A stretch of 64,000 nucleotides of DNA from Synechococcales cyanobacterium CNB (GTDB taxonomy: Bacteria; Planctomycetota; Phycisphaerae; Phycisphaerales; UBA1924): positions 1 to 64,000 of the forward strand of contig SZOZ01000010.1 in NCBI GenBank assembly GCA_030263455.1, written 5' to 3'. Under the pieces are notes generated by a model. It was not told the origin of the DNA and did no database searches. It saw only the letters and a list, made by a program, of their open reading frames with translations. A program made the translations under genes and the position numbers. Position 1 is the stretch's first letter. Each line of letters begins with the position of its first letter. This document shows positions 27,786 to 42,890 of the stretch, in pieces.

Positions 27786-28673
27786 GTGACCGAGACCGCC
27801 GCCGGTGACCCCCCCCCCACAACCCTCCGCCTGGGTCTGCCCAAGGGCCGGATGCACGACGGAGTTCTCGCGCTGCTCGCGGACGCGGGCATCCGCGTGG
27901 CCGTCTCGCCGCGCGGGTATCGGCCCGTCGTCTCGCTGCCGGCGGTGGAGGCGAAGATTCTCAAGCCGCAGAACGTGGTCGAGATGCTGCACGCCGGGAC
28001 GCGCGACCTTGGCTTCGCGGGGGCGGACTGGGTGGCGGAACTCGGCGCGGACATCGTCGAAGTGCTGGACACGAGCCTCGACCCGGTGCGGCTGGTGGCG
28101 GCCGCGCCGCGGGCGATTCTTGAGGACGGGCGGTTGCCGGCGCGGCGGCTGGTCGTCGCGGCGGAGTACGAGCGACTGGCGACGCGCTGGATCGCCGCTC
28201 GCGGGCTCGACGCGGCGTTCGTGCGCTCGTATGGGGCGACGGAGGTCTTTCCGCCGGAGGACGCCGACTGCATCATCGACGTGACGGCGACCGGCTCGAC
28301 GCTCCAGGCGAACGACCTCGTGATCGTGGACGAGGTGATGCGCTCCTCGACGCGGCTGTACGCGAGCCGGTCGGCATGGGACGACCCGGCGCGTCGCGGG
28401 CGGATCGACGACCTCGCGCTGCTGCTGCGGAGCGTGCTGGACGCGCGCCGGCGGGTCATGCTGGAGCTGAACGTGCCGCGCGAGAGGCTCGAAGAGGTGT
28501 GCGCCGCGCTCCCGTGCATGAGGGAGCCGACGATCTCGCCGCTGCACGCGGACTCGGGGTACGCGGTGAAGGCGGCCGTGCCCCGTGCGGACCTGCCGCA
28601 CCTGATCCCGGCGTTGCGAGCGCGCGGGGGGACGGACATCGTGATCTCGCCGATCGCGCAGGTGGTGCCGTGA
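27786..28673 (+). CDS. hisG: ATP phosphoribosyltransferase, long form
   Basis: A 295-residue enzyme for the first step of histidine synthesis (PRPP + ATP). It starts with GTG after AAGGAG. The catalytic part (about residues 15-215) includes LRLGLPKGRMHDGVL, LGFAGADWVAELG and the PRPP loop IIDVTATGSTLQAND. The C-terminal domain (about 220-295; ADSGYAVKAAVPR..., GGTDIVISPIAQVV) is the ACT-like regulatory domain of the long form, so histidine feedback inhibition is expected and no HisZ is needed. A run of ten C lies at codons 8-11, a slippage-prone spot. The stop overlaps the hisC start by GTGA. Confidence 0.95.
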   Translation: MTETAAGDPPPTTLRLGLPKGRMHDGVLALLADAGIRVAVSPRGYRPVVSLPAVEAKILKPQNVVEMLHAGTRDLGFAGADWVAELGADIVEVLDTSLDPVRLVAAAPRAILEDGRLPARRLVVAAEYERLATRWIAARGLDAAFVRSYGATEVFPPEDADCIIDVTATGSTLQANDLVIVDEVMRSSTRLYASRSAWDDPARRGRIDDLALLLRSVLDARRRVMLELNVPRERLEEVCAALPCMREPTISPLHADSGYAVKAAVPRADLPHLIPALRARGGTDIVISPIAQVVP

Positions 28674-29705
28674 GCGATTCGCCGCGACCAGCACCGGCCG
28701 CTCGTGTCCGCGCCGTCGCACCGTATGCGCCGCCCGCCGCTGCTTCACGTCCACGGTCCGCTGTCCACAGTCCGCTGTGGCTGCACGCGAACGAGGGGCG
28801 CGCGCCGGACGCGGCGATTCTCGATCGCCTTCGCGCCCTCGACGCGGAGACGCTGCGTCGCTACGCGAAGCCGACCGCGCTCGAAGCGATTCTCGCGGCG
28901 CACTTCGGCGTCGAGCCGGAGCGGGTCGTGGTGACCGCGGGCGCGGACGACGCGCTCGAACGGCTGTGCCGGGCGATGCTGGAGCCGGGTCGTACGGCCG
29001 TGCTGACCGATCCCACCTTCGAGATGCTGCCGCGGTACGTGCGGCTGGCGGGCGGGTTGCCGGTGGAGGTGCCGTGGCTCGACAGGGCGTTTCCGGCGGA
29101 GGAGTTCGAGCGTGCGATCGACGCGAGGACCCGGGCGGCGTTCATCGTGTCGCCGAACAACCCGACCGGGGCGGCCGTTTCCCCCGCCGACATGCTGGGC
29201 ATTGCGGGGCGCAACCCCTCGTGCCTCGTCGTGGCCGACCTGGCGTACGTCGAGTTCGCGGACGAGGATCCGACGGCCGAGTTGCTCCGGCTGCCGAACG
29301 CGGTCGTGACGCGCACGTTCAGCAAGGCGTGGGGCCTGGCGGGGCTGCGCGTGGGCTACGCGATCGGCCCGGCGGAAGCGATCGGGTGGCTGCGGACCGT
29401 CGGGCATCCGTTCCCGACGTCGGGCGTGAGCCTCGCGCTGGCGGCGGCTGCGCTGGAGGCCGATCAGGCCGGCACGAGCGCGGCTCCGGTCGATGGGGGC
29501 GGACGCGCCGCCGTCGCAGGGGAACTTTGTGCTTGCGCGGTTCACGGACGCCTGGGCGGTCGCGGATGCGCTGGGCGAGCGGGGGATCCGCGTCCGGCGC
29601 TTCGAGCGGGGCACGCCGCTGGGCGATCGGCTGCGCATCACCTGCCCGGGGAACAAAGAGGAGTTCGAGCGGCTTGTCGGGGCTTTGGGAGAGATTCTCC
29701 GATGA
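28670..29705 (+). pseudogene. hisC: Histidinol-phosphate aminotransferase, frame broken
   Basis: The PLP enzyme that transaminates imidazole acetol phosphate. From GTG at 28670 the frame reads well through LHANEGRAPD, SPNNPTGA, VVADLAYVEFA and the PLP-lysine region TRTFSKAWGLAGLRVGYA, as far as SLALAAAALEADQ (about 29468). The C-terminal part resumes in a different frame as RLRSMGADAPPSQGNFVLARF and runs to 29705. Between the two parts, only eight codons separate ALEA from the MGADAPPS block, where about 28 are usual. So a non-multiple-of-three loss of around 60 bases lies near 29463-29492. The PLP lysine is intact, but the encoded chain is cut. This is gene decay or an assembly error. Confidence 0.85.
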
Positions 29706-29725
29706 ACGCTGAGTGCACGGGGATG

Positions 29726-29800
29726 AACGCGGAGGGCGCGGAGGGCAACGATGATCCGCGCAGCGTGTCCGCGGGGTGTGCACTCCGCGAGACCTCGGCG
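29726..29800. repeat. Degenerate palindromic element between hisC and hisB
   Basis: AACGCGGAG followed by GGCGCGGAG at 29726-29743 matches the left arm of the element inside hisF (31570-31587) at 16 of 18 positions. A matching but eroded right arm, starting CTCCGCG, lies at 29783. It fills most of the 130 bases between hisC and hisB. The same family is therefore present both between and inside his genes. Confidence 0.5.
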
Positions 29801-30525: not shown

Positions 30526-32022
30526 ATGAGCGAAGTCGTCGTCATCCGCACGGGCACAGCGAACCTCGCCTCCGTTCTTGCTGCGCTGGGGCGCGCGGGT
30601 GTCGATGCTCGTGTGTCTGACGACCCGCGCGACGCGGAGCATGCCCAGCGGCTTGTGCTGCCGGGCGTCGGCTCGTTCGGCGCGGGTATGCACGCGTTGA
30701 ACGCGCACGGCCTCGTCGAACCTCTCCGGCGGCGGATCATCGAAGGCCGACCGACGCTCGCCGTCTGCCTCGGGCTGCAGCTGCTCGCCGAGTCGAGCGA
30801 GGAGTCGCCTGGCGTGCGCGGGCTGGGGGTCATCCCGGCGAGCGTCACCCGCTTTCCCGATTCCGTCCGCGTGCCGCAGATCGGCTGGAACCGCGTGTTC
30901 GCCGGGCCTGGATGCGCGCTGCTGGAGTCGGGGTGCGCGTACTACGCGAACTCGTACCGTCTGGAAGCCCCCCCCTCGGGCTGGGCGTGCGCGACGAGCG
31001 ATCACGCCGGCCCGTTCGTCGGCGCGATGGAGCGCGGGCGCGCGCTGGCCTGCCAGTTCCACCCCGAACTGTCGGGGCCTTGGGGGCGAGCGCTCGTCGA
31101 ACGGTGGTTGTGCGCGGGCACGGGGGCGCGGCGGCCCTGCGCGTTGCATGGGGCGATCGGTCGCACGCCCTTCCCGCGCGTGATCCCTTGTCTCGACGTG
31201 CGCGACGGGCGGATCGTGAAGGGCGTTCGGTTCGCCGACCTGCGCGACGCGGGCGACCCGGCGGAGCGGGCCGCGCTCTACGAGGCGCAGGGCGCGGACG
31301 AGATCGTCATTCTCGACGTCTCGGCGACGCCCGAGGGTCGCAAGACGGCCTCGGAGACGGTGCGCCGCGTGCGTGCGGCGCTGAGCATCCCGCTGACCGT
31401 CGGCGGGGGCGTGCGCACGCCGGAGGACGCGGCCGCGCTGCTCGACGCCGGGGCGGACAAGGTGAGCGTGAACACCGCGGCCGTGGAGCGCCCCGCGCTG
31501 GTCGCGGACCTCGCCGGGCGGTTCGGCGCCCAGTGCACGGTGCTCGCCATCGACGCGGCGAGGAGGCGGAACGCAGAGGGCGCAGAGAGGGAGCCGGGTT
31601 CAGAGTCCGATCTTCCAAGCGGCGGTTCTGCTCCGCGTTCTCTGCGTTCTACTTCTTCGTCCTCGGTGTTCTCCTGGGAGGTGGTGACGCGCTCGGGCAC
31701 GCGCCGGACGGGCGTTGACGCCGTTGATTGGGCGCGGCGTGCGTGCGAACTCGGCGCGGGCGAGGTGCTGCTGACGAGTTTCGACCGCGACGGCACGCGC
31801 GAGGGCTACGACCTCGACCTGCTGCGGTCGGTCAGCGTGGCCGTGCCCGTGCCGGTGATCGCCAGCGGTGGCGCGGACACGCCCGAGCACCTGAAGCACG
31901 CGCTCGAGGCTGGCGCGGACGCGGTGCTGGCGGCGTCGATCTTCCACGACGGGGAGCACACGGTCGATGGCGTGAAGCAAGCCCTGGCCGCGCTGGGCGT
32001 GGCGTTGCGTCCGGCCGGATGA
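30526..32022 (+). CDS. hisHF: Fused HisH-HisF imidazole glycerol phosphate synthase
   Basis: A 498-residue fusion of glutaminase and cyclase, which together make IGP and AICAR from PRFAR. HisH spans about 1-195, with [11 protein letters not shown] (catalytic Cys about 85) and CQFHPELSG (His-Glu). A linker of about 20 residues leads to HisF from about 213: [20 protein letters not shown] (first catalytic Asp), [21 protein letters not shown] (second catalytic Asp) and [13 protein letters not shown]. After AIDAARR comes an extra segment of about 35 residues encoded by a palindromic element; the barrel then resumes at SWEVVTRSG. Frame and active-site residues are intact. No hisA is present nearby. 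Confidence 0.93.
31570..31648. repeat. Palindromic element inserted in frame in hisF
   Basis: AACGCAGAG at 31570-31578 and CTCTGCGTT at 31640-31648 are perfect inverted repeats, and the adjoining nine bases on each side match at six of nine. The element lies within the extra Ser/Arg/Glu-rich segment of HisF (starting [10 protein letters not shown]). The left arm is nearly the same as that of the intergenic copy at 29726. It has kept the reading frame open and in phase. Confidence 0.7.
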
Positions 32023-40979: not shown

Positions 40980-41303
40980 TCACGCGGCCTTGCGGACGCG
41001 GCGGCGGGCCGTCGAGGACGACGACCACGCGGCGAACGCCGGGGCGGTCGATGCCGACGTCCGGCGGCGTGTGGCGCGCTTGGCGGCGGGGCGCTTGGTC
41101 GCGGCCCGCTTGGCGGTGGTGCGCTTGGCCTTGGTGCGGCGGGTAGCGCGCTTGGCGGCGGGGCGCTTGGTCGCGGTCCGGCGGGCGGTGGTGCGCTTGG
41201 CCGCGGTCCGGCGGGCGGTGCGCTTGGCGGTGCGGCGCTTGGTCGCCGTGTGGCGGGCGGTGCGCCTGGTCGTCCTGCTGGTCCTGCGGGTTCTGGTCGC
41301 CAT
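40980..41303 (-). CDS. Histone H1-like Lys/Arg/Ala/Thr repeat protein
   Basis: A 107-residue, extremely basic protein. From residue 2 to about 82 it is built almost only from Thr, Arg, Ala and Lys, with the units KRPAAKRATRR occurring twice and many KRTARRT-like units. The last 25 residues (STAPAFAAWSSSSTARRRVRKAA) differ. This matches the disordered Lys/Ala-rich tails of histone H1 and of bacterial Hc1/AlgP-type nucleoid proteins, so a DNA-compacting role is likely. AGGAG lies nine bases before the ATG. It has its own terminator and stands alone, divergent from the DAHP synthase gene. Confidence 0.8.
   Translation of the reverse strand: MATRTRRTSRTTRRTARHTATKRRTAKRTARRTAAKRTTARRTATKRPAAKRATRRTKAKRTTAKRAATKRPAAKRATRRRTSASTAPAFAAWSSSSTARRRVRKAA
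41074..41176. repeat. 31-base direct repeat inside the histone-like gene
   Basis: The 31 bases at 41074-41104 recur exactly at 41146-41176, a period of 72 bases or 24 codons. The repeat encodes TKRPAAKRA-type units. It offers a site for recombination that would add or remove whole codons and keep the frame. Confidence 0.7.
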
Positions 41304-41574: not shown

Positions 41575-42890
41575 GTGACCCCCACAGAACAGCCGTGGAC
41601 GCCCGATTCCTGGCGATCCAGGCCCGCGCAGCACGGCTTCGACTATCCCGACGCGGGCGCGCTGGAGGCCGCGATCACCAAGCTCCGCTCGCTCCCCCCC
41701 CTTGTGACCTCGTTCGAGATCGAGCGGCTCAAGGCCCTGCTCGCTGAAGCCCAGGAGGGGCGGCGGTTCCTGCTCCAGGGGGGCGACTGCGCCGAGACGC
41801 TCGCGGACTGCCGGCCGGAGACCATCACCAGCAAGCTCAAGATCCTGCTGCAGATGTCGCTGGTGCTGGTGCACGGGCTGAACAAACGGAGTCGCGCGAC
41901 GGACCGAACGGTCCGCGCACGCTCCCTTCGTACTTCGGCGACCTCATCAACGCCGCGGACTTTGACGAGCGCGCCCGCACGCCGGACCCGCACCTGATGG
42001 TGAGGGGCTACCAGCACGCGGCGATGACGCTGAACTTCATCCGCTCGCTGCTGGAGGGCGGGTTCGCCGACGTGCACCACCCCGAGTACTGGGACCTCTC
42101 GTTCCTGCACCACGCCGACCTGCCCCCGGAGCGCAAGGCCGATTACGAGCGCGTGAGCGCGAGTCTGGCCCAGGCGCTGAAGTTCATGGAGGCGCTGGGC
42201 GAGGCCCGCATCGAGGAGCTCACGCGCGTCGAGTTCTACACGAGCCACGAGGGGCTGAACCTGCTCTATGAGAGCGCGCAGACCCGGCGGGTGCCGCGGC
42301 GGACGGGCTGGTACGACCTGACCACGCACATGCCCTGGATCGGCGACCGGACCCGCGCCCTCGGCGGCGCGCACGTCGAGTTCTTCCGCGGCGTGGCGAA
42401 CCCGGTGGCCGTGAAGCTGGGGCACGGCACCAGGCCCGGCGACGCGGTCGCCATCGCCCGCGCGCTCAATCCCGCGGATGAGCCGGGCAAACTCGCCCTC
42501 ATCACTCGCATGGGCGCGCACCGCGTGCGCGAGACCCTGCCGCCGATCCTCGACGCGGTCCGGCGCGAGGGCGTGCGCGTGCTGTGGGTCTGCGACCCGA
42601 TGCACGGCAACACGACGACGACCTCGACGGGGGTGAAGACGCGCTCCTTCGATGCCATCGCCGAGGAACTGGAGCGGACCATCGACGCCCACCGCGATGC
42701 CGGCACCATGCTCGGCGGGGTGCACTTCGAACTGACGGGCGAGGACGTGACCGAATGCCTCGGCGGCGCGGCCGGGGTGACCGAGGAGGCCCTGACCCGC
42801 AACTACGCCTCCCCCTGCGACCCCCGGCTGAACTACCAGCAGTCGCTGGAACTCGCGTTCCGTCTCCGCGCCCGTCTCGCGGGAACGTGA
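41575..42890 (+). pseudogene. Class II DAHP synthase, frame broken
   Basis: The first enzyme of the shikimate pathway, plant-like (class II) type. From GTG at 41575, after GCAGGAG, the frame gives FLLQGGDCAETL and LKILLQMSLVLVHGLNK (to about 41886). The rest follows in another frame as TESRDGPNGPRTLPSYFGD and runs cleanly to 42890, with VWVCDPMHGNT, GGVHFELTGEDVTEC and NYASPCDPRLNYQQSLELAF. Between the parts about 20 residues are missing, including the conserved PEP-site motif (usually RxAGQYAKPR). Loss of that motif would abolish activity. Either the gene is dead or the sequence lacks around 60 bases by assembly error. Confidence 0.85.

Follow-up and report, generated by a model that had tools for sequence, protein, structure and literature searches.

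A class II DAHP synthase gene split by a 58-nt loss that is probably an artefact of contig joining

The window studied here is a 64,000-nt stretch of DNA, C10:1-64000 of a source assembly (G000) that comprises 3,206,821 bases in 17 contigs and is rated 98.68% complete. On its plus strand, at 41575..42890, lies a gene for class II DAHP synthase (aroG/aroF class II; aroG in the following) that is split over two frames. PF01474 matches it in two pieces, positions 1-97 and 112-437 of the 438-position profile, which differ in frame and adjoin each other at the break, and TIGR01358 matches it likewise. When the gene is aligned with its orthologues in two genomes of the same genus (G001 and G002), a single 58-nt gap appears between 41885 and 41886 and the rest of the gene aligns along its length; by reading the alignment, we saw no homology at the junction (41885..41886, plus strand). 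Since 58 leaves a remainder of one when divided by three, this gap shifts the reading frame. The G002 counterpart of the missing stretch reads KPVIRVGRFAGQYAKPRSSP, about 20 residues. The initial annotation of this DNA had already described a class II DAHP synthase broken at this place with a change of frame and the loss of about 20 residues that include the PEP-binding motif, and our alignments and profile matches bear out each of these points, including the motif (see below).

A PF01474 match was found in 48 of 61 genomes, and G000 alone has the pieces in different open frames. The matches in G031 and G047 are also split, yet inside one open frame, and in G003 a contig end truncates the match. 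Among the best 80 of 589 matches to the DAHP synthase, from which records of the same genome are possibly absent, the best four that carry a name come from metagenome genomes of three Phycisphaerales and one member of Planctomycetota, at 68-72% identity.

Both G000 pieces match the family of the AroG enzyme of M. tuberculosis (PDB 2B7O; TIGR01358, PF01474), and the G002 orthologue aligns with this enzyme over residues 12-451. According to the part of the literature on M. tuberculosis AroG that was accessible to us, Arg126 binds PEP, while Arg135 and Ser136 place the phosphate of E4P (PMC5493349). In the alignment of the G002 orthologue with the M. tuberculosis enzyme, the counterparts of all three residues, and with them the PEP-site arginine, fall inside the missing 58 nt, so that the G000 gene differs from M. 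tuberculosis AroG by the absence of the Arg126/Arg135/Ser136 stretch in addition to the change of frame. As written, the gene thus has neither one open frame over the profile nor these three residues and, judging from the sequence, could not give rise to an active enzyme.

Another gene of the window, hisC for histidinol-phosphate transaminase (28670..29705, plus strand), is split over two frames as well. Alignment with G001 shows 44 nt to be absent at its junction (29481..29482, plus strand), the exact place being ambiguous by a few bases. TIGR01141 matches the first part of the gene, below its cut-off since the piece is truncated, and PF00155 covers only positions 19-267 of 361, whereas G001 and G002 each have one unbroken match there. 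Open frames in the window encode HisG, HisB, and a fused HisH-HisF. The initial annotation had ascribed to hisC the same kind of loss of around 60 bases, 12 kb away from the break in the DAHP synthase gene. The kind of defect and the distance hold, with 12.4 kb between the two junctions, but the size does not, as 44 nt fall short of 60, and to speak of the "same size" was loose for losses of 58 and 44 nt.

One alternative reading of these two genes would be that the deletions are real and recent, i.e., that this strain, or some of the population, no longer has DAHP synthase and HisC and relies on an external supply of aromatic amino acids and histidine. Apart from the break, the two halves of either gene are intact, as a very recent deletion would leave them, and among seven other PF00155 matches in G000 another aminotransferase might in principle replace HisC. 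However, neither aroG nor hisC shows a sign of relaxed selection when dN/dS of the branch pairs that include G000 is compared with the intact pair of G001 and G002. For aroG, the G000 pairs gave 0.137 and 0.124 upstream and 0.054 and 0.068 downstream of the break (intact pair, 0.139 and 0.066); for hisC, the values were 0.109 and 0.137 versus 0.105 for the intact pair, and 0.225 and 0.194 versus 0.241. Neither gene thus bears the relaxed selection or the further lesions of a true pseudogene, and a very recent pseudogene would look alike. The remainder of the pathway also speaks against real deletion: profile searches with PF01474, PF00793, and TIGR01358 found no second DAHP synthase in G000, yet chorismate synthase is kept and is open along with two chorismate-binding enzymes. 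The sole PF00793 gene of G000 is a KDO8P synthase, which scores above the cut-off of NF003543 and below that of TIGR01362. A search of the assembly for a second copy of the missing DAHP synthase piece gave no convincing match beyond the two flanks (best other match with an E value of 0.036; 40 of 57 candidates scored).

Losses of this class are not confined to the window. The comparison with G001 covered 861,648 aligned bases of G000 and 662 G001 reading frames with coding signal; the G001 stretches were selected by their proximity to anchor genes rather than randomly. Among clean gaps of at least 25 nt with good flanks, nine represent sequence absent from G000 and one represents sequence absent from G001, the latter being 36 nt long and thus a multiple of three. 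By inspection, five of the nine G000 gaps break genes: aroG (58 nt, 41885/41886), a gene on C11 (53 nt, C11:168366/168367), a gene for a small membrane protein on C9 (50 nt, C9:103077/103078), hisC (44 nt, 29481/29482), and a gene near the end of C10 (35 nt, C10:140696/140697). The aroG and hisC losses were polarised by both G001 and G002 and the other losses by G001 together with the reading frame, with contig C15 as additional evidence for the one at the C10 end. A further loss relative to G001 (45 nt, G000:C9:139472/139473) is in frame and affects what we take to be a membrane pyrophosphatase-like protein; it may be the same artefact without a change of frame, or natural variation. Three gaps were left out of the gene-body class, namely one of 50 nt at C10:1269 (intergenic), one of 42 nt on C1 (within a glycine-rich repeated tail), and one of 27 nt on C7 (between genes).

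A frame test that is free of gene calls found three breaks of at least 20 nt in G000 versus none in G001; the C9 and C10-end losses failed the filters of this test and were accepted by their reading frames. For breaks below 20 nt, the same test gave seven in G000 versus 11 in G001, with eight unresolved, and we rejected a general small-indel error as the cause since such breaks are about equally common in the two genomes. Of the small breaks that we viewed, most fall between genes or at the edges of genes. The gene-based lists, which include frame breaks of every size, are similar as well (12 in G000, 10 in G001); C10:1269 is found there as a G001 break (net +50) and lies between genes on inspection. 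No clean gene-breaking loss was seen in the aligned G001 sequence, which has one composite frame break made up of three gaps (net -52; C1@130k ORF).

The same class of loss is therefore found elsewhere in G000 and in no clean instance in G001 (nine gaps versus one), with the composite break of G001 as a caveat. The aroG/hisC pair is not special within G000, and the common cause that the initial annotation had suspected behind the two defects is supported by this recurrence. Five gene-breaking losses at one time, in unrelated genes and within a quarter of the genome, would be a large number for real deletions, and we regard recent gene loss in the organism as unlikely. If the losses were true, they would indicate an unusual deletion process. 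This could be a lineage-specific mutator of the end-joining type whose deletions of 35-58 nt have hardly any homology at their junctions, and that acted too recently for selection to purge the aroG and hisC knock-outs, a scenario that we would give very little credence.

An alternative raised early on was that hairpin-prone, GC-rich DNA had been deleted in the cell or, as a variant of this idea, skipped by the polymerase during library making. The GC content around the sites is indeed about 71%, and two single folding results are low: by folding energy, the G001 version of the hisC piece (15-nt flanks) lies at the 1st percentile and the G002 version of the aroG piece (without flanks) at the 8th. 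But the G002 hisC piece and the G001 aroG piece, both with 15-nt flanks, lie at the 33rd and 38th percentile, respectively, and the mean percentiles of six lost pieces against a coding background are 0.63, 0.55, and 0.47 with 0, 10, and 20 nt of flank. These tests used the sequence of relatives except for one site, for which the genome's own C15 copy of the lost piece is available and gave 0.72-0.91. Short direct or inverted repeats that might bound the missing pieces did not exceed chance, with one of 14 boundary-repeat tests below 0.1 (an inverted repeat on C9, p 0.03). With the exception of the two low single folding results, neither boundary repeats nor strong folding mark the lost pieces, and in view of this inconsistent signal we retained neither hairpins nor flanking repeats as the cause; the suggested deletion of hairpin-prone DNA thus goes without support and seems to us very unlikely. 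The other early suggestion, systematic collapse by the assembler, fared better in one part: A systematic assembly cause is the best-supported form of a common cause, but "collapse" is a poor fit because no repeat bounds the lost pieces.

How G000 was made can be read to some extent from its exact repeats. In 1,326,366 bases of G000, we found 34 exact repeats of at least 50 nt; 16 of them measure exactly 99 nt, which is also the maximum length. Fourteen of these 16 are pairs of contig ends and two are internal. Correspondingly, 28 of the 34 contig ends (e.g., the starts of C10 and C13) have exactly 99 bases in common with another end, all 14 pairs being sibling ends, and no overlap of at least 15 bases that could still be joined was found among the 34 ends. 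Some end pairs stay similar past the 99 bases (94% for C2 end/C7 start and 97% for C10 end/C15 start), and the breaks between contigs therefore lie at two-copy sequences. In the text of the COBRA paper available to us, contig ends overlap by 99 bases for a maxK of 99 (metaSPAdes, MEGAHIT) or 100 (IDBA_UD), and contigs are advised over IDBA_UD scaffolds owing to scaffolding errors (PMC10914622). Because its contig ends show exactly this 99-base sharing, G000 is a short-read de Bruijn assembly in the sense of that description. In G001, repeats reach the same limit of 99 bases (the longest of 34 repeats of at least 50 nt), and one overlap was left unjoined there (C4/C23; 13 of around 80 contig ends examined). 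G000 thus looks as if it had been joined further than G001, which makes its joints suspect, and the joining rather than the assembler alone is suspected because G001 carries the 99-base signature without clean losses.

One of the losses touches such a unit directly. An internal 99-base unit occupies C10:140598-140696, with the 35-nt loss directly behind it at 140696/140697; one edge of the exact run is at the gap by definition, and the informative part is its length of exactly 99. Contig C15 contains this region as well, there including the 35 nt, at 97% identity over 249 aligned bases. That this gene exists within G000 in two versions, with and without the 35 nt, would also be compatible with natural variants and hence with real deletion. 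The second internal 99-base pair is found on C2 in tandem paralogues, where we saw no loss by eye. For the aroG and hisC junctions, the flanking sequences were not found elsewhere in the assembly (40 of 102 and 40 of 158 candidates scored, respectively), and no second copy of the flanks was found for the other three losses in the G000 sequence examined.

Taken together, we consider it quite likely that the 58-nt loss in the DAHP synthase gene is an artefact of joining contigs. It seems that these were joined after the graph stage, whether during scaffolding, while gaps were closed, or in a joining step of its own, and that true sequence of 35-58 nt was dropped at some of the joints regardless of the reading frame. 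Possibly, all 99 bases were cut off at joints whose true overlap was shorter, which would always cause losses of less than 99 nt, as seen. No named error type with losses in this size range (35-58 nt) is known to us, and the portions available to us of the literature on long-read indel errors, misassembly of GC-rich or hairpin sequence, and overlap joining held no direct description of such losses. The likeness to contig-joint errors of short-read metagenomes lies in the exact 99-base sharing of G000 contig ends as described in the accessible text of the COBRA paper (PMC10914622), in losses that ignore the reading frame, and in the one loss that adjoins a 99-base unit. Because their flanks were found nowhere else in the assembly, we infer for aroG and hisC that their losses arose in the same way as the one at C10:140696; the step that dropped the bases is likewise inferred. 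Against the joining artefact stand these unique flanks, which give no direct tie to a 99-base joint, as well as the composite net -52 break of G001 and the similar length of the gene-based lists (12 versus 10).

The break in the DAHP synthase gene is therefore probably not a real biological feature, and the DAHP synthase of the organism itself is most likely intact. If five gene-breaking losses per 862 kb, a rate from a non-random sample, held over 3.2 Mb, around 19 genes of G000 could be falsely broken. Given such possible false breaks in an assembly that is rated 98.68% complete, no auxotrophy should be inferred from G000. Contig ends that share exactly 99 bases offer an inexpensive clue to how such an assembly was made.

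Among the neighbors of the two split genes, the hisH-hisF fusion (30526-32022, plus strand) is one frame of 498 aa with PF00117 at 37-188 and PF00977 at 218-478 and has extra residues inside its HisF part. A GC-rich repeat that translates as NAEGAE follows hisC at around 29706-29800 and, by eye, seemingly also lies in frame inside hisF (around 31560-31670, plus strand); the length of this repeat region differs in G001. A small protein encoded at 40980-41303 (minus strand) consists of repeats rich in Lys, Arg, Thr, and Ala and by eye resembles DNA-binding proteins of the histone H1 type, with no match in Pfam.
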